Shown here: positions 6,637 to 58,950 of the stretch, piece after piece
Layout of the letters: each line of letters starts with the position of its first letter
Position numbering within the stretch: the first letter of the stretch is position 1
From: Lachnospiraceae bacterium
GTDB lineage: Bacteria > Bacillota_A > Clostridia > Lachnospirales > Lachnospiraceae
Length of the DNA stretch: 64,000 nt
Reading direction: 5' to 3'
Assembly (NCBI GenBank): GCA_021770615.1
Contig: JAETQR010000008.1
Location: 48,819-112,818 of the forward strand
Translations under genes and position numbers: made by a program
Notes under the pieces: generated by a model
Database searches by the model: none
What the model was told of the DNA's origin: nothing
Seen by the model: only the letters and a program-made list of their open reading frames with translations

Positions 6637-8546
6637 AGAGGATGAGACGATTGAAATGGAAAAGGGGAATGGCAATTTTGTGCCTTGTGGCAGGACTCAT
6701 TTTGCAGGCAGGCCCGGATGGTTTTTGTGCAGGTTCTGCCGAACAGGGGAAGGAAGCAGTGGCGGGGCAGGACGAATTGTCAGAGGACGGGAAACAGGGA
6801 GCATCCGACGGCGGAGGTACAGGATTTGCCATTGACAGCCAGAATGTGTATGAGGGAATGGAAAAATCGTGGTCTCAGGGATATGTTCCGAAGATTGAAA
6901 AGAGGAAAGCGGTCGTGGTGCTTCCGCTGCAGGCAAAACGTAAATTGTCCGGGAACCAGATCACGGCATCCCTTTCTTTGGGGGAATCGGAACATCTGCC
7001 ATTTGTGCAAAAAAATTATGAGAAAATAGTTTCGTATGGATACCATAAGACAAAAAAGGGGGGTGCATTGTCAGGATGCTGGCTTGTTGTGTTTCACCTG
7101 GAGTTAGAGGAGGAGCGCTATAACGGAGATTACCCTGTGACCGTGTCTGTTCATGCCCGGGACGAGGAGGGCGGTGAGATTTATCAGGAGTTTACTGTAC
7201 ATGTCACCATTACGAATGGCGTGGGAAAACAGGATCTGTCAGATGGCAGTGGGGGATTTGCCATTGATAACCAGAGGATATATAAAGGAATGGAGAAACC
7301 ATATTCCAGAGGGTATGTTCCGGTGATCCGGGGAGATCGGGCAGTTATCGTGCTTCCGTTACAGGCAAAGCGTAAGTTGTCCGGAAACCGGATGGCAGTT
7401 TCCCTTTCTTTTGGAGAATCAGAGCACTCACCATTTGTGCAAAAAAATTATGAAAAGGAAGTAAAATTTAAATATCATAAGACCGGGAAAAATGGAAAAA
7501 GGACAGGGGGTTATCTGGTCACTTTCCCGGTGAAATTAAAAAAGAAGCGTTATAATGGAAATTATCCTGTGACGTTATCTGTCTGTGCAGAGGATAAAGA
7601 TGGGAATGAACTCCATCAGGATTTTACGGTATACGTCGTTATCAAGGATGGAAAGAAGGCCGGTGCGGATGCCGGGGGTGGCGAAGGGAAGCAGGCTCAG
7701 TTTGCTCCCAGGGTTATGATCGAATCCTGCCGGTTTTCTGAAAAAAAGATCTTGTGCGGACAAAAATTTACTGCAAAACTTACGCTGAGAAATACAAGTA
7801 AGACAGATCCTGTAAAAAATATGCTCGTGACTGTCGTGCCGGATGAGAATATAGAGCTGTGCGGGGAAACAGGCAGCGCGTATGTGGAGGAGCTGGGAAG
7901 TGGAGGAAGCTGTGAATTGTCATTTGTATTTCGTGTAAAAGCGGCAGCGCCCTGTGGACAGTACAGTGTCGGAATTACGATGGATTATGCGGATGGCAGG
8001 GGAACTTCTTATACGTTAGAAGATGCGGTGAAAGTGTCAGCAGAGCAACAGACAAAGATTGAGATCGCCCCGCACTGTGTGCCAAAGGAAATACAAATGG
8101 GAGAGACGGTGGATCTGCAGACACAGGTGATGAATCTGGGAAAGGGAAAGCTTTATAATGTCCGTGCCATGCTGGAAGCGGATGGACTGTCACCTTCCGG
8201 ACTGGCGTTTATCGGGGATATTGAAGCCGGGACATCGATGACGGGCAGCATGGAATTTACCGCAGAAGGGCTTTCGGGAGAGTTCTTATATGGCACAACG
8301 CAGGGAAAGATAACCTTTTATTATGAGGATGAGGCGGGGAAAGAGATGACACAGGAACAACGTTTTGAAACATCGATCGTGTCTCCGCTAAAAGAAGAGA
8401 AAACGAACCGGCAGACAGACGATACCGGACAATGGTGGGTGATCATGACGGTTATTGCGGTACTCCTCATTTTGGCAGCAGTCATAGTTGTTGTGAGAAG
8501 GTTACGACAGGATAAGACAGGAGAAGCAGAAGAGAATGAAAAATAA
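6633..8546 (+). CDS. Membrane-anchored surface protein with duplicated domain and CARDB-like region
   Basis: The 637-residue protein has a signal peptide (about 1-33). Two copies of a domain of about 130 residues follow, each opening with GFAID and containing the YVP...LPLQAKRKLSGN and PFVQKNYEK motifs (DNA about 6819-7215 and 7254-7650). Two tandem beta-rich segments resembling CARDB/NEW3 adhesion-type domains follow (about 355-595). A C-terminal membrane helix (about 605-625) with an RRLRQDK stop-transfer tail anchors it. The ATG overlaps the ATPase stop. It probably forms the extracellular arm of the exporter cluster. The duplicated domain is not one I can name. Confidence 0.7.
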   Translation: MKRMRRLKWKRGMAILCLVAGLILQAGPDGFCAGSAEQGKEAVAGQDELSEDGKQGASDGGGTGFAIDSQNVYEGMEKSWSQGYVPKIEKRKAVVVLPLQAKRKLSGNQITASLSLGESEHLPFVQKNYEKIVSYGYHKTKKGGALSGCWLVVFHLELEEERYNGDYPVTVSVHARDEEGGEIYQEFTVHVTITNGVGKQDLSDGSGGFAIDNQRIYKGMEKPYSRGYVPVIRGDRAVIVLPLQAKRKLSGNRMAVSLSFGESEHSPFVQKNYEKEVKFKYHKTGKNGKRTGGYLVTFPVKLKKKRYNGNYPVTLSVCAEDKDGNELHQDFTVYVVIKDGKKAGADAGGGEGKQAQFAPRVMIESCRFSEKKILCGQKFTAKLTLRNTSKTDPVKNMLVTVVPDENIELCGETGSAYVEELGSGGSCELSFVFRVKAAAPCGQYSVGITMDYADGRGTSYTLEDAVKVSAEQQTKIEIAPHCVPKEIQMGETVDLQTQVMNLGKGKLYNVRAMLEADGLSPSGLAFIGDIEAGTSMTGSMEFTAEGLSGEFLYGTTQGKITFYYEDEAGKEMTQEQRFETSIVSPLKEEKTNRQTDDTGQWWVIMTVIAVLLILAAVIVVVRRLRQDKTGEAEENEK

Positions 8547-9390
8547 GATCCGGTATTTTTTAAAACTCAGAAAACAAAATGATGTGGTGAAATGGATCTG
8601 TATCTTTGTGTTGTCAGGAGCCGCATTTTTGATCAGTGCGGCGTGTCATATAAGGGCGATCTACCGTTATGTAAATACTCCGGCAGAATATGTATTGGCC
8701 GGAGAGAGTGTGATATCGCAAAGGCGGGTAGATGAATTATGGAAGAGTAAGGATGTGGCCATGGTGAGCCGGCAGCTGGAGGTTCCGGTATCCATATCCT
8801 GTCAGGGAGCAGTGGCGGACATAACGGCTACGGTGCTTTCCGAAGAATATATTGAGGGAATGTGTGGAGCGGAAGCTTTAGCCGGAACGAAAAAGATCTA
8901 TATGAATGAAACCGCCTTTCGGGAATTACAGTTTACGTTATCGGAGAATCATGTGGATATACAGAGCGTGGGACAGACAGATGACGTTCCGGAATACGAT
9001 ATCCGTTATTTTATGGCAGAGGCCACGAAGGATCCGGAGGGAGAGGAGGCGACCAGGCCGGATTATAAAACAGCGAAGCTTATCGTGCAGAAGACAGGGC
9101 AGCAGGGAGAGGAGTGTGCTGTTTTTATGGCGGGGACAGACAGCTGGCTTTTAAAGGAGGCCTGCAGCCTGCGGGTGCAGTTTACAAAACATGATCTGGA
9201 TGGACTTCATGTCGACTGGCTAAAGAAGCTGGGATATGTGATCGAGAATGAGGAGATGGTAGTTGCGGAGGAGTATGAGATACAGCAGGAGCTGCTTCAT
9301 GTCCGGTATGGGCTGCTTTGTTTTGCAATCTGCCTGGCGGCAGTGTTTGTGTTAGCACGGAAATCAATTTGGGACGGCCACAATTTATGA
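8536..9390 (+). CDS. Membrane protein of unknown function closing the export cluster
   Basis: The 284-residue protein overlaps the preceding gene by 11 bp. It has an N-terminal membrane helix (about 20-42), an extracytoplasmic region of some 200 residues, and a C-terminal helix (about 258-276). That is the topology of the extracytoplasmic domains in MacB/FtsX-like permeases, but with only two helices. I recognise no named family. The last nine codons (KSIWDGHNL) and the stop lie inside the left arm of a long palindromic element (9361-9608). Either the natural C-terminus was copied to make the inverted arm, or the element replaced the original end. Confidence 0.65.
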   Translation: MKNKIRYFLKLRKQNDVVKWICIFVLSGAAFLISAACHIRAIYRYVNTPAEYVLAGESVISQRRVDELWKSKDVAMVSRQLEVPVSISCQGAVADITATVLSEEYIEGMCGAEALAGTKKIYMNETAFRELQFTLSENHVDIQSVGQTDDVPEYDIRYFMAEATKDPEGEEATRPDYKTAKLIVQKTGQQGEECAVFMAGTDSWLLKEACSLRVQFTKHDLDGLHVDWLKKLGYVIENEEMVVAEEYEIQQELLHVRYGLLCFAICLAAVFVLARKSIWDGHNL

Positions 9391-9608
9391 GAATCGTGAC
9401 ATTTGTACAGTAGCGGGAATATTTTCTGATCTGGACCCGCTTGCGCTGAATAAACATGTAGCGGTACAAAGGCTGCAAGGTGCCCAAATCGCACCTTATA
9501 CGCAGCCTAAGGACCGACACGTTTATACGGTCCTTATCAGAAAATATTCCCGCTACTGTACGAAGCTTTATCAGCTTTCCATAAATTGTGGCCGCCCCAA
9601 ATTGATTT
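9361..9608. repeat. Long multi-hairpin palindromic element, copy 1 (uninterrupted)
   Basis: Outer arms 9361-9388 and 9581-9608 are inverted repeats with one mismatch in 28. Inside them, 9405-9430 and 9536-9561 are perfect 26-nt inverted repeats. Between these lie three smaller hairpins: CCGC/GCGG (about 9437-9463), GGCTGC...GCAGCC enclosing GGTGC/GCACC (about 9471-9507), and AAGGACCG/CGGTCCTT (about 9509-9535). The whole could fold as a four-way junction. The core 9405-9561 recurs at 57089-58885, where an IS interrupts it. There is no coding potential. The stretch 9506-9520 is identical to the IS target in copy 2. Confidence 0.9.
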
Positions 9609-9655
9609 CTGTGTTGTGTTAAGGACATTTATTGTGCGAGGGAGGGGGATATTTA

Positions 9656-50155: not shown

Positions 50156-51301
50156 ATGCCAGCATACAAAGACAAAAAGAATGGAAAATGGTACTGTAAA
50201 TTTTATTACAAAGATTGGACGGGGATTCGGAGACAAAAATGGAAGCGGGGATTTCCAACGAAACGCGAAGCTAAAATCTATGAGCGGGATTTTTTGCAAC
50301 AACAGGTGGCAAGTCCGGATATTTTATTTCAAAATCTATATGAGGTTTATTTGGAAGAAATGTCGGTGCGTCTCAAGCATTCTACGATTCTGATCAAGAA
50401 AAATATCTGCGAGACAAAAATTTTACCATATTTTAGGGATAAAATGGTAAATGAAATCACCGCAGCAGATGTAAGACGTTGGCAAAATGAATTGATGAAA
50501 GCGGAAAATCACTATTCAGAGACATACTTAAAGACGATCAATAATCAAATGTCAGCAATCATCAATTATGCTATCAGGTATTATAATCTGGCAAAAAATC
50601 CATGCGAACAGGCAGGAAGTATCGGTGCAAACAGAGCCGACAGGATGCAATATTGGACGTTGGATGAATTTTTGGCATTCAGGAAGGGTATATGTGATAA
50701 GAAGGTATCGTATCTTTGTTTTGAAATTTTGTATTGGACGGGGATACGAAGTGGTGAATTGCTCGCACTGACACCAGCGGATATAGATTTTCAGAAAAAG
50801 GAAATCCATATAGAGAAGACATATCAGCGTATTCAGGGAGCAGATGTCATCACAAAACCTAAGACGAGAAAAAGTAATCGAAGTATTCTTATGCCGGATT
50901 TTTTGTGTGAGGAGTTGTGGGAGTATTTGAAGAGTCTTTCCTGTGACACAATGAGTGAACGGCTATTTCCATTTACAAGATATTTTCTGAGCTATGAAAT
51001 GAAACGGGGCTGCGAGAGGACAGGGATTAAGAAAATTCGCATCCATGATCTTAGGCATTCCCATGTTTCCCTTTTGATCAATCTGGGATTTGATGCGTTG
51101 ATCATTGCTGAAAGAGTAGGGCATGAAAATGTATCAACCACACTCAATACGTATGCGCATTTGTTCCCGAATCGCCAAACTGCATTAGTTTCATCTCTTG
51201 AAAAGCTGGGGCGGAGAGAAGAGGAGTGGAAAAATAGTAGCAATATAGTAGCAGAAAAAGAAACCATGTCGTTTTTTCAAGGAGAATTAAGGCGGGTTTG
51301 A
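50156..51301 (+). CDS. Tyrosine site-specific integrase, orphan
   Basis: The 381-residue recombinase has an arm-type DNA-binding start (KNGKWYCKFYYKDWTGIRRQ), a SAM-like core-binding domain (about 58-145) and a catalytic domain. The catalytic residues are R198 (TGIRSGE), H297 and R300 (HDLRHSH), H323 (VGHEN) and Y333 (NTYAHL), so it looks active. This is the phage/ICE integrase class. No excisionase, relaxase or phage gene is adjacent, so it is either a remnant or the edge of a very small element. A 16-nt palindrome (GTTCGCTATAGCGAAC, 50040-50055) lies upstream. Confidence 0.9.
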   Translation: MPAYKDKKNGKWYCKFYYKDWTGIRRQKWKRGFPTKREAKIYERDFLQQQVASPDILFQNLYEVYLEEMSVRLKHSTILIKKNICETKILPYFRDKMVNEITAADVRRWQNELMKAENHYSETYLKTINNQMSAIINYAIRYYNLAKNPCEQAGSIGANRADRMQYWTLDEFLAFRKGICDKKVSYLCFEILYWTGIRSGELLALTPADIDFQKKEIHIEKTYQRIQGADVITKPKTRKSNRSILMPDFLCEELWEYLKSLSCDTMSERLFPFTRYFLSYEMKRGCERTGIKKIRIHDLRHSHVSLLINLGFDALIIAERVGHENVSTTLNTYAHLFPNRQTALVSSLEKLGRREEEWKNSSNIVAEKETMSFFQGELRRV

Positions 51302-51554: not shown

Positions 51555-53621
51555 ATGAAGATGAGACTTCTGGGAAAGAAATCATCAAAGACATCCCGTA
51601 AAGCGATGGCACTTACTTTGTCACTTGCGCTTGGTATGTCTGCAGTTGCTGTATCACCTTCTGTTGATGCAGCAAGTAAAAAGGTACCGACTCTTAATGT
51701 AAAAAAGAAAACACTTTATTACAATAGGTCCGGAGCTAATGTATATACCTTGAAAGTAATAAAGAACAAGGTGAAGGCAATCAAAAAGACTACATGGAAA
51801 ACCAGCAACAAAAGTGTAGTAGCTATTAGCAGTAAGAAAAAAACATCTACAAAACTGACGGCGAAAAAGGCAGGACAGGCAAAAATTACTGCAACGGTTA
51901 AGTACACTTTAAAAGGGAGTAAAAAGGTTAAGAGTAAAAAACTGACCTGTACAATAAGTGTAAAGCGTTATCAGGATGGAGGAGTTACTCCAACAGCAGC
52001 CCCAACGGTCGCACCGACAACAGCACCAACAGCAGCGCCAACGGAGGCCCCAACAGCAGCGCCGACAGCAGCGCCAACGGAGGCCCCGACAGCAGCGCCA
52101 ACGGAGGCCCCGACAGCAGCCCCAACGGAGGCACCAACGGCAGCACCGACAACAGTACCAACGGCAGCGCCAACGGAGGCCCCGACAGCAGCCCCGACAG
52201 CAGCGCCAACGGAGGCCCCGACAGCAGCGCCAACGGAGGCCCCGACAGCAGCGCCAACAACAGCACCAACAGCAGCGCCGACAGCAGCACCAACGGAGGC
52301 CCCGACAGCAGCACCAACAACAGCACCAACAGCAGCGCCAACGGAGGCACCAACAGCAGCACCAGTAGTAACAACGGTTGAAATTGAGCCGGGGACAGAG
52401 ACGCTCAGTCTGGAGGAAGGAAAAAATAAAGTAACACTGACAGCGACGGTAAAGGATCAGTATGGAGAGGCGATGGCGGATCAGAACGTTGCCTGGTCGT
52501 CAAGTGATGCAAGCATCGCTACGGTAGAGAGTGGCGAGGTAACAGCAGTGGCAGAAGGCACTGTTACGATCACGGCGACAGTTGGTGGGGTAAGCGGAAC
52601 CTGCAGGATCGTAGTTTTGGAAGAAATACCGGTACCGGTCGTAACAACCGTTGAACTCAGTGCGACAACGGAGACGCTCAGTCTGGAGGAAGGAAAAAAT
52701 AAAGTAACGCTGATAGCGACGGTGAAAGATCAGTACGGAAATGAAATGGAAGGCCAAAACATTGTCTGGTCATCAAGTGATACAAGGATCGCTACGGTAG
52801 AGAGTGGCGAGGTAACAGCGGTAGGAGCAGGAACAACGGAGATTACAGCGAAGGTGGGCGATGTGGAATCGGAAGCTTGTGTAGTGACGGTGGAAGCGGA
52901 AGAATCGCGACTGGAAGTTGACCTTGGAGACAATGCGGAATATACGGCGACAGGTAGCGAGGAAAATTACGCTGTGACCGCATCGGTGGATTTAAGTGCC
53001 TGTGATCTGTCAAAATATGATGTAATTGGAGTGACTTTTGAAGCTCCGGAGGGAAAAGCGTTTAATCCGGTTATATATTCTGCAGGAAATACAGGTACAG
53101 AGTATGCGCAATTCGGTTATAATAAGAAATCCGGAACATATTTCCTGGCATTGACGGATGAGCTGAAGGCAAAAAAAGATGCAGTAATCGGGCTTAAGGT
53201 ATCAGAGAATGTAACTTTTGACGCAGATGCTAAAGTTAGTATTACCAAAGTTTCTCTTGTGAAAATGACAGAAGTTGACCTTGGAGACAATGCGGAATAT
53301 ACGGCGACAGGTAGCGAGGGAAATTACGCTGTGACTGCGTCAGTGGATTTAAGTGCCTGTGATCTGTCAAAATATGATGTGATCGGAGTGACTTTTGAAG
53401 CTCCGGAGGGAAAAACGCTTAATCCGGTTATATATTCTGCGGGAAATACAGGTACAGAGTATGCGCAATTCGGTTATAATAAGGAATCCGGGACATATTT
53501 CCTGGCATTGACGGATGAGCTGAAGACGAAAAAAGATGCCGTGATCGGGCTTAAGGTATCAGAAGGTGTAACCTTTAACGCAAATGTTAAAGTTAATATT
53601 ACCAATGTATCTCTTGGATGA
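51555..53621 (+). CDS. Secreted surface protein with Ig-like domains and Pro-Thr-Ala stalk
   Basis: AAAGGAGG precedes two in-frame ATGs (51555 and 51561). The 688-residue product has a signal peptide (about 1-38), a Lys-rich BIG2-like domain (about 40-137), a low-complexity stalk of PTAAPT/PTEAPT repeats (about 145-272), two BIG2 domains (about 274-355 and 360-450) and two near-identical C-terminal domains of about 115 residues starting VDLGDNAEYTATGSE. There is no LPXTG or membrane anchor, so it may be secreted or held by wall interactions. The C-terminal domain is not one I can name; its beta-rich sequence suggests carbohydrate binding. Confidence 0.75.
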   Translation: MKMRLLGKKSSKTSRKAMALTLSLALGMSAVAVSPSVDAASKKVPTLNVKKKTLYYNRSGANVYTLKVIKNKVKAIKKTTWKTSNKSVVAISSKKKTSTKLTAKKAGQAKITATVKYTLKGSKKVKSKKLTCTISVKRYQDGGVTPTAAPTVAPTTAPTAAPTEAPTAAPTAAPTEAPTAAPTEAPTAAPTEAPTAAPTTVPTAAPTEAPTAAPTAAPTEAPTAAPTEAPTAAPTTAPTAAPTAAPTEAPTAAPTTAPTAAPTEAPTAAPVVTTVEIEPGTETLSLEEGKNKVTLTATVKDQYGEAMADQNVAWSSSDASIATVESGEVTAVAEGTVTITATVGGVSGTCRIVVLEEIPVPVVTTVELSATTETLSLEEGKNKVTLIATVKDQYGNEMEGQNIVWSSSDTRIATVESGEVTAVGAGTTEITAKVGDVESEACVVTVEAEESRLEVDLGDNAEYTATGSEENYAVTASVDLSACDLSKYDVIGVTFEAPEGKAFNPVIYSAGNTGTEYAQFGYNKKSGTYFLALTDELKAKKDAVIGLKVSENVTFDADAKVSITKVSLVKMTEVDLGDNAEYTATGSEGNYAVTASVDLSACDLSKYDVIGVTFEAPEGKTLNPVIYSAGNTGTEYAQFGYNKESGTYFLALTDELKTKKDAVIGLKVSEGVTFNANVKVNITNVSLG
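51990..52370 (+). repeat. Tandem low-complexity repeat coding the Pro-Thr-Ala stalk
   Basis: Short units of the type CCAACAGCAGCGCCAACGGAGGC are repeated with variation for about 380 bp, coding PTAAPT/PTEAPT. Units differ only in third positions and in Glu/Ala/Thr/Val exchanges, so slippage-driven length variation between strains is likely. The stretch has a long antisense open frame that is a composition artefact. Confidence 0.9.
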
Positions 53622-56989: not shown

Positions 56990-57301
56990 TCTTTTGTTTA
57001 TTGGTTATTATATGAGGAATCCGTCGAAATGTGTCGGACACCGGAATGAATTTTTAGCAGTTGCAGCTTCCCTGGACTAGTAAGATTTGTACAGCAGCGG
57101 GTATAATTCCTGATTCAGACCCGCTTGCGCTTAAAATAAACATGTAGCGGTACAAAGGCTGCAAGGTGCCCAAATCGCACCTTATACGCAGCCTAAGATA
57201 ATATGAAGTGACCTCACATTTGCACCAACGTGGATTTACCTGTATACTAAGTTTTAGCAAAACAAAAAAACAGGAATTACCACATACAAAAGGAGGCCAC
57301 T

Positions 57302-58435
57302 ATGTATAGAATAATCAAAATCGGGATGGATGTCCATAGTAAAAATTACACACTCTGCGCAATGGAACCGGTGATCGGGGAAAAAGAACGCATTTTTGCA
57401 ACTATCCAGGTCACAGCAGATTACAAAAATATTTTACTGTTTATTGAGGATTTAAAGTTGAAGCTTGGCCTGGACAACGAATATGATATCCAATGCGGTT
57501 ACGAAGCCGGATGCCTGGGATATTCTTTGTATAACCAGCTGACAGCTGCAGGTGTAAAATGCGTGATCCTTGCCCCCACAACTATGATGACGCAGAAGGG
57601 AAAACGGGTGAAAACAGATGCAAGGGACGCCCACATGATTGCCCAGTGCCTGTCCTATGGCGGGTACCGTCCGGTCTACATCCCGACAGAAGAGGATGAT
57701 TCCGTAAAAGAATACCTTAGGATGCGGGATGACCATAAGATCACACTCAAGAAGATCAAACAGCAGATCAATGCATTCTGCCTGCGCCATGGATGCCATT
57801 ACGAAGGAACCAGATGGAGCCTCAGGCATATGAGATGGCTGAGGAAACTGGAGCTGTCCCCGCTGTACAGGGAAACGCTGGAGGAATACCTGGCGTCTTA
57901 TGATGAACAGACAGCGAAGATAGAACGCTTTGACAGAAGGATCGAGGAGCTGGCTGCCCAGAAAAGGTATAAAGAAAAGGCAGGGAAACTGGGATGCTTC
58001 CTTGGGATCAAAACCCATACCGCGCTATCCCTGATTGTGGAAACCGGGGATTTCAGCAGGTTTGCAAAGGGAAACACGTATGCAGCGTTCCTGGGGCTGT
58101 CACCAGGAGAAAATTCCAGCGGGGAGAATGTAAGTAGGACAGGGATCAGCAAAATGGGGAACAGCCACCTGAGGCGTCTGCTGACCGAAGCGGCGCAGGG
58201 CATATGCAAAGGAATGGTGGGGCATAAATCAAAAGAACTGCGGGCGAGGCAGAATGGGAACACGGCGGAAGTCATCGCCTATGCCGATAAGGCAAACATA
58301 AGGCTCAGGAGCCGGTACTACCGGTTTATACGGAATGGAAAGAAGAAAAATGTTGCGACAGCGGCAATAGCAAGGGAACTGGCGTGTTTTGTGTGGGGAA
58401 TGATGACGGACAATATCAGTTTGAAAACAGCCTGA
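57302..58435 (+). CDS. IS110/IS1111-family transposase (DEDD plus serine recombinase)
   Basis: The 377-residue protein has the N-terminal RuvC-like DEDD domain (D10 in IGMDVHSKNYTL, E68 in CGYEAG, D106 and D109 in KTDARDA), a central coiled coil (about 185-225) and the C-terminal Tnp domain with the SSG serine (S272/S273) followed by ISKMGNSHLRRLLTEAA. All key residues are present and the frame is intact, so it should be active. AAAAGGAGG precedes the ATG. Recombinases of this family are guided by a bridge RNA from their own element; a candidate lies in the 3' end. Confidence 0.95.
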   Translation: MYRIIKIGMDVHSKNYTLCAMEPVIGEKERIFATIQVTADYKNILLFIEDLKLKLGLDNEYDIQCGYEAGCLGYSLYNQLTAAGVKCVILAPTTMMTQKGKRVKTDARDAHMIAQCLSYGGYRPVYIPTEEDDSVKEYLRMRDDHKITLKKIKQQINAFCLRHGCHYEGTRWSLRHMRWLRKLELSPLYRETLEEYLASYDEQTAKIERFDRRIEELAAQKRYKEKAGKLGCFLGIKTHTALSLIVETGDFSRFAKGNTYAAFLGLSPGENSSGENVSRTGISKMGNSHLRRLLTEAAQGICKGMVGHKSKELRARQNGNTAEVIAYADKANIRLRSRYYRFIRNGKKKNVATAAIARELACFVWGMMTDNISLKTA

Positions 58436-58546
58436 GGGGGAAACAACATCACAGCCATCTGCCCGTCAAGGGTAAAATGAACTGCCGGCGCAGCCCCTGA
58501 CAACCAGGCAGTAAACGGCAGCGTTTCAGCCAGTAACAAAAAACAT

Positions 58547-58750
58547 CTGACAGCATCCGGAAGGGGCTGGGATCAATAGAAGGTTCGGGCCATCTGTGTC
58601 GGTCCTTTGTGTGCACGTAAGATCGTGATCCACGTCCTAAGATCGCAGGGCTCACGGCGGACCATTAGCCTGTTGGTAACCAATCCACGAATAACAGAGT
58701 GGCCAACTGCCGGGAACTGTTAAATCAGGGCTCCTTCCGGATGCTGTCAG
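58547..58750 (+). ncRNA. Candidate bridge RNA of the IS110/IS1111-type element
   Basis: Outer arms 58547-58567 and 58730-58750 pair over 21 bp with one G-U. Inside, GTGTCGGTCCT (58596-58606) is the reverse complement of the right target flank with core (58834-58844). CCTAAG (58636-58641) equals the left target flank with core (57192-57197). ATAACAG (58691-58697) equals the right IS end with core (58829-58835). A GTTGG/CCAAT hairpin lies in the second loop. These fit left-target, right-target and right-donor guides. The left-donor guide is not clear (ATTAGCCT at 58664 against ATTATCT). Exact RNA ends are inferred from the stem. Confidence 0.85.
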
Positions 58751-58950
58751 ACAAAAATATGGGTAATGTCAACGGGAAAAGAAAAAAGTTTGTGCCATTT
58801 AAGTTTTCCTCTTGACAAAAGTCACTTCATAACAGGACCGACACGTTTATACGGTCCTTATCAGAAATTATACCCGCTGCTGTACAAATTTTCATCCGTT
58901 CATAAGGAAGCTGCAACTGCTAAAATTTGATCCTGTGTCGGACACATTCG

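Follow-up and report, generated by a model that had tools for sequence, protein, structure and literature searches.

The locus described here raises the question of whether an insertion sequence of a Lachnospiraceae bacterium carries, in its own non-coding end, the RNA which addresses it to its target. The window, i.e., the whole stretch of DNA that was analysed, comprises 64,000 nucleotides and contains one intact IS110-family recombinase (57302–58435; all features are given on the + strand). We would put at roughly 0.85 the probability that this is an IS1111-type element whose 3' non-coding end is a bridge RNA (seekRNA) directing its own DEDD recombinase. Four points are counted as backed by the sequence: the match of the guides with the element's own flanks, the tracking of flanks by the guides of relatives, a fold which is kept via double changes, and the presence of an uninterrupted target.

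Recombinase and Ends of the Element

The element occupies 57198–58835 if the AG core is counted only at its right end; its junctions were set against an uninterrupted copy of the target at 9401–9572. The recombinase consists of 377 amino acids in an intact frame. In a profile search it scored 210.6 bits with NF033542 ("IS110 family RNA-guided transposase"; cut-off 140), and the domains PF01548 and PF02371 were found; a sequence search gave ISCro4 (9t56; E 4.4e-9) and IS621 (8wt6; E 1.3e-6) as its relatives with solved structures. A GL-P----SG motif is present at residues 265–274. Residues D10, E68, D106, D109, S272 and S273, which we take to be the DEDD and serine residues of the recombinase, were invariant in the 62 intact sequences among 80 examined. 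Two relatives of the recombinase were detected among viral contigs and were left out of later comparisons.

The subterminal inverted repeats, TATGAAGTGAC on the left (57202–57212) and GTCACTTCATA on the right (58821–58831), are 11 bp long and perfect (100% complementary), which is within the range of 7–17 bp given for the IS1111 branch in the available text of PMC11208160. About 400 nucleotides of non-coding DNA follow the recombinase (58436–58835), versus 104 nucleotides upstream of it (57198–57301). The DEDD recombinase, the subterminal repeats and the longer downstream non-coding part thus place the element in the IS1111 branch. An earlier note on this DNA had assigned it to the IS110/IS1111 family, which is borne out by the recombinase with its two domains and its motif and by the 11-bp repeats; the same note had expected the bridge RNA of this branch in the right end, and the RNA segment does lie downstream, at 58546–58751. 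The top-strand guide (58599–58606) stands 5' of the bottom-strand guide (58635–58641), as is the rule for IS1111. TTGACA, the predicted −35 half of a circle-junction promoter (58812–58817; partner GATAAT, 57197–57202), occurred in 59 of 62 right ends, with a spacing of 17 or 18 to the partner half.

The Insertion Site

On the host side, comparison with the uninterrupted copy gave CCTA-AG as left target half plus core (57192–57197) and GACCGACAC as core AG plus right target half (58834–58844). Joining of the flanks, with AG counted once, yields GCAGCCTA-AG-GACCGACACG at the junction. The uninterrupted target repeat, or empty site, at 9401–9572 is identical to the joined flanks in 157 of 174 positions, and its part from 9451 to 9543 is identical straight across the junction; the target 15-mer CCTAAGGACCGACAC has one exact match within the window, at 9506 (9506–9520). 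Since the uninterrupted copy can be aligned over the junction, the element corresponds to 57198–58835, inserted without target duplication.

The predicted address of the window copy is the inner stem of a long multi-copy hairpin repeat, CCTA-AG-GACCGA. This repeat has a length of about 250–330 nucleotides and a conserved core; copies in the window are located at 9365–9610 and, interrupted by the element, at 57028–57197 with 58836–58948. The uninterrupted copy (9350–9640) forms a hairpin of great length (z −16.35). Rfam gave no match in the window at the gathering threshold, and the empty repeat copy had none even at E values up to 1. The outer arms of the repeat differ between the two window copies, yet each copy is self-complementary. 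The left arm of the uninterrupted copy overlaps the 3' end of an ORF (8536–9390; regions 9360–9400 and 9573–9610), so that its right arm repeats the end of a coding frame in inverted orientation.

By coaBC, the nearest genome is G321 (83% nucleotide identity), which was arrived at via the genus and family to which the genome of locus L001, a Blautia sp. MAG, belongs; this is in keeping with the clostridial host supposed in the earlier note and makes a member of the Lachnospiraceae likely. G321 contained 24 matches to the repeat (loci L129–L152 among the repeat copies), which were merged into 21 separate places. At 13 distinct repeat sites of this genome CCTAAG was present throughout (13/13), followed by GACCGA in 3, AACCGA in 7 and TACCGA in 3. 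The repeat was absent at E 0.001 from the other 38 genomes of the genus of G321, and in G321 itself the search for the element gave no match among the 9 of 25 candidates that were scored. Weak matches to the left flank of the element (about 40 nucleotides, 83–85%) were obtained in two of 299 genomes of the family, in each of which few candidates were scored. Among viral contigs, a 30-mer from the repeat was not matched exactly.

Target Guides

The non-coding end contains, at 58596–58606, the sequence GTGTCGGTCCT, which is the exact reverse complement of the core plus right flank (58834–58844). With 11 nucleotides it is the longest complement to the right junction; when the non-coding end was resampled under a first-order Markov model, 5 of 20,000 sequences reached 11 or more. 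The exact complement stands as first described, but its whole length does not represent the guide: judged by the relatives, the guide proper has 6 nucleotides plus the 2-nucleotide core, i.e., TCGGTC-CT (58599–58606, complement of 58834–58841), which tracks the flank in relatives, and the preceding GTG aligns with the GCG of most relatives, a constant stem strand. On the left side, CCTAAG occurs once in the non-coding end (58636–58641) and equals the left flank plus core (57192–57197), exactly as had been noted before. The left target guide with core, TCCTA-AG (58635–58641), matches the left flank plus core in 6 of 7 positions, and the left guides of relatives track their flanks.

Structure of the RNA Segment

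The predicted bridge RNA, or long seekRNA, extends from 58546 to 58751, as indicated by its stem, its fold and covariation. A segment of 204 nucleotides with a closing stem in the 3' non-coding end had already been described, and it was found again: the stem arms (58546–58567 and 58730–58751) are 22 nucleotides long and 95% complementary. The segment 58547–58750 folds with −92.2 kcal/mol (z −5.69), and 0 of 200 shuffles were as low. For comparisons, 79 loci with relatives were taken from genome contigs; 45 of 46 distinct RNA segments were aligned, with the shorter segment of L001 (186 nucleotides) left out. The consensus structure comprises 51 pairs, of which 33 are changed on both sides in the 45 segments. 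In 96.8% of cells the consensus bases pair, versus 86.7% in shuffled alignments and at most 45.3% when the structure was slid, a control in which the structure is favoured, as it came from the same alignment. Double-change cells numbered 252, compared with 64.2 after shuffling. In the consensus of the 45 sequences both target guides, right and left, remain unpaired, as does ATAACAG, unlike in the minimum-energy fold of the window sequence, which pairs GGUCC of the right guide inside the RNA. A conserved structure with free target guides is thus seen in the consensus, and the single-sequence fold of the window differs from it.

Guides and Flanks of Relatives

The earlier note had proposed to check whether the guides co-vary with the flanks of each copy, and this they do. 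Guides were taken from the columns of an alignment which included 55 of the 80 elements, namely those with a recognized right end and a sufficiently long non-coding end; 48 of these 55 had a guide and at least 6 nucleotides of right flank (46 had at least 25), and they reduced to 45 distinct guide/flank pairs with 31 distinct guides. The right guide matched its own flank in 190 of 270 positions over the 45 pairs, versus a mean of 84.5 for permuted pairs, and 0 of 20,000 permutations reached 190. From position 1 to position 6 the matches were 37, 39, 42, 38, 24 and 10 of 45. For the left guide, the comparison was restricted to rows in which CT, CC or TT was recognized as core, and among these to AG-core copies; 66 of 100 positions matched over 25 distinct pairs (one of them with two N), compared with 40.2 in permuted pairs, and again 0 of 20,000 reached the observed value. 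The two positions adjoining the core matched in 25/25 and 21/25 pairs, the next two in 10/25 each.

Elements which are at least 85% identical outside the guides and have different right guides formed 54 close pairs. In 51 of them the guides fitted their own flanks better than the swapped ones; there was one tie, and two pairs fitted worse. Because close pairs fit their own flanks better, the role of ancestry in the agreement is limited. Guides that stay fixed while the targets differ had been named in the earlier note as evidence against a bridge RNA; the close pairs went the opposite way. Three elements (L021, L023 and L027) are 95–97% alike outside the guides, yet they carry unrelated guides at correspondingly unrelated targets.

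Genomes with several copies gave a similar picture. G327 (8 of 9 matches used) had AGGT in 4/4 right ends and TA-GG in 5/5 left ends, with the guides AGGTAA and TTATA-GG; in G007 (all 12 matches used) the right ends were GTGGTC, GTGTAC, GTGGTG and TTGGTA for the guide GTGGTA, and 6/6 left ends were TT-AG. The copies of one element in G327, and likewise those in G007, share the complement of the guide adjoining the core. G003 possesses both AG and GG cores, and its ends are therefore not assignable to one guide. Against tracking are the right guide of L049, with 0/6 matches, and the poor matches of L022, L041 and L065. In G004 the base adjoining the core was mismatched in 4/4 right ends, with GAG next in all four. 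L005 and L006 represent one of the two close pairs running against the trend; they are 98% identical outside the guides, with the guide of L005 fitting its own flank less well than that of L006. L040 has AG as left core, GG as right core and guides of AG type, i.e., a core mismatch between its ends.

Alternatively, the segment might belong to the recombinase mRNA as a structured 3' UTR or a terminator, with coincidental matches to the flanks, since strong hairpins are common at gene ends and the Markov resamples did produce matches of 11 nucleotides in the five cases given above. The agreement of guides and flanks over 31 distinct guides and within close pairs makes this explanation so improbable that it can practically be set aside. 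Both a chance match and a plain 3' UTR were rejected on the basis of the close-pair test together with the permutation test of guide/flank agreement.

Predicted Donor Loop

Upstream of the left donor guide a conserved ACCATTR segment was noticed, which the earlier reading had missed and which is the predicted right donor guide, ACCATTAGCC (58661–58670). Its ATTA or ATTG changes along with TAAT or CAAT at the left IS end (30 copies combine ATTA with ATAAT and 25 combine ATTG with ACAAT, with 0 exceptions among 55), and the predicted left donor guide ATAACAG (58691–58697), or else ATAACGG or ATATCAG, equals the right end of its own element in 56 of 58 copies (exceptions L040 and L079); the changes in the donor segments follow few clades and thus represent few independent changes. 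The match of the ATTA segment does not extend to the bases directly at the core. As to ATAACAG, the match with the right IS end plus core that had been reported is confirmed as an equality of sequence, but that it acts as a free guide is less certain than for the target guides, since it is complementary to CTGTTA (58717–58722) inside the RNA. That the donor loop pairs with the left as well as the right IS end is a prediction.

ISEc11, in the available text of PMC11187229, is reported to need no more than an 82-nucleotide seekRNA for movement, and this seekRNA contained target matches only. The RNA could likewise pick the target alone in the present element, with the protein reading the IS ends via the subterminal repeats and the donor loop serving as a scaffold, in which the pairing of ATAACAG with CTGTTA would find a place. 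That the left end is tracked by ATTR in 55/55 copies, and the right end by the ATAACAG segment in 56/58, argues against a mere scaffold, and so does the layout guide-hairpin-ATCCACG-guide, which is common to the target and donor loops. We consider this explanation doubtful, and prefer a bridge RNA in which both loops would act as guides.

Possible Mechanism and Comparison with Known Systems

For such a bridge RNA the following course may be envisaged. The element would be excised as a circle, the joined ends of which would form a promoter, TTGACA-17-GATAAT, for transcription of the recombinase and the RNA; a junction promoter is described for ISEc11 in the available text of PMC11187229. To the right of the core the RNA would base-pair with the top strand, and to the left of it with the bottom strand; in the donor loop, ATTA would pair with the left IS end and ATAACAG with the right one. 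Strand exchange by the recombinase would then take place at AG and leave no duplication of the target.

The window copy may have belonged to this type formerly and be no longer active; it is a single copy in the window, beside an empty repeat, and its activity is a prediction. The intact frame of the recombinase with the invariant residues kept, the intact ends, guides and promoter halves, and the match of the guides with the present site all render a loss of activity improbable, and an element still served by its own bridge RNA is the preferred reading. The earlier note had read the locus as a working recombinase/RNA pair, and in the main this is supported, with "working" as the predicted part.

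This kind of element is already known, and the window element adds a member. IS1111 elements with seekRNA (ISEc11, ISPa11, ISKpn4), as far as they are described in the available text of PMC11187229, are alike in the subterminal repeats, the downstream non-coding region, the position of the top-strand guide 5' of the bottom-strand guide and the lack of target duplication; the halves of a junction promoter are also common to both, here recognized from sequence alone. The same text describes foldable repeats as sites of ISPa11 (REP) and ISKpn4 (attC), similar to the site of the window element, and gives 330–350 amino acids for IS1111 recombinases, compared with 377 here. Unlike in ISEc11, ISPa11 and ISKpn4, the target is the hairpin repeat of the lineage or, in relatives, Shine-Dalgarno sites, and there is sequence evidence for a donor loop in the window element. 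IS621 and the IS110 group have pairs of target and donor guides around a short core, as is predicted for the window element, and the recombinases are related by sequence; the RNA of that group, however, is located in the left end, whereas that of the window element is in the right end and is accompanied by long subterminal repeats. The donor segments of the window element are outside of a simple internal loop, unlike those of IS621; this is reported for many IS1111 members in the available text of PMC11208160.

Anti-Shine-Dalgarno Guides in Relatives

Many relatives appear, from their guides and flanks, to be addressed to Shine-Dalgarno sequences instead of the hairpin repeat. Among the copies with at least 25 nucleotides of right flank, 18 of 54 were situated within a Shine-Dalgarno-like sequence that precedes a start codon and its open frame, versus 4.4% of 20,000 random AG/GG positions in the same loci (binomial 8e-12, relatedness not corrected); this control includes coding DNA and leaves the survival of intergenic insertions uncontrolled, and a comparison between classes of guides is the better one. 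The guide could be read in 46 copies of the relatives, and in 22 of them it was of the anti-Shine-Dalgarno type. Of these 22 copies, 15 were inserted at a Shine-Dalgarno-like site that precedes an open frame, compared with 3 of the 24 others (Fisher 0.0002, relatedness not corrected). The complement of GGAG or GAGG occurred in 11 of 35 distinct guides, versus 13.8% of random guides of the same composition. Since the right IS end finishes in AG or GG, the Shine-Dalgarno site is rebuilt on the right side of the insertion. Loci with both a Shine-Dalgarno-like insertion and an anti-Shine-Dalgarno guide are L003, L007, L009, L010, L011, L031, L035, L064, L066, L067 and others.

It seems fairly likely that a clade of RNA-guided insertion sequences of Lachnospiraceae possesses a bridge RNA with a copy of the ribosomal anti-Shine-Dalgarno sequence, lands in ribosome-binding sites before genes and rebuilds them, and that its guides are switched rapidly in nature, the window element being a sibling re-aimed at the hairpin repeat. 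No paper on anti-Shine-Dalgarno-guided insertion was found in the open-access literature, most subscription papers lying outside this search. If the Shine-Dalgarno reading is true, an RNA-guided element would be aimed at a functional motif which is among the commonest in bacterial genomes, and it would be a broad gene-proximal inserter.

The clade represents a natural experiment in the reprogramming of guides. Natural guide switching among near-identical elements and the anti-Shine-Dalgarno guides both raise its interest; a comparison of its members shows which guide positions count most, i.e., right 1–4 and left 1–2, and it offers recombinases with known native targets. Elsewhere in the window, an ORF at 50156–51301 resembles, judged by eye only, a tyrosine-type integrase, and the ORF following it (51555–53621) contains, also by eye only, a long low-complexity stretch, PTAAPTEAPTAAP.
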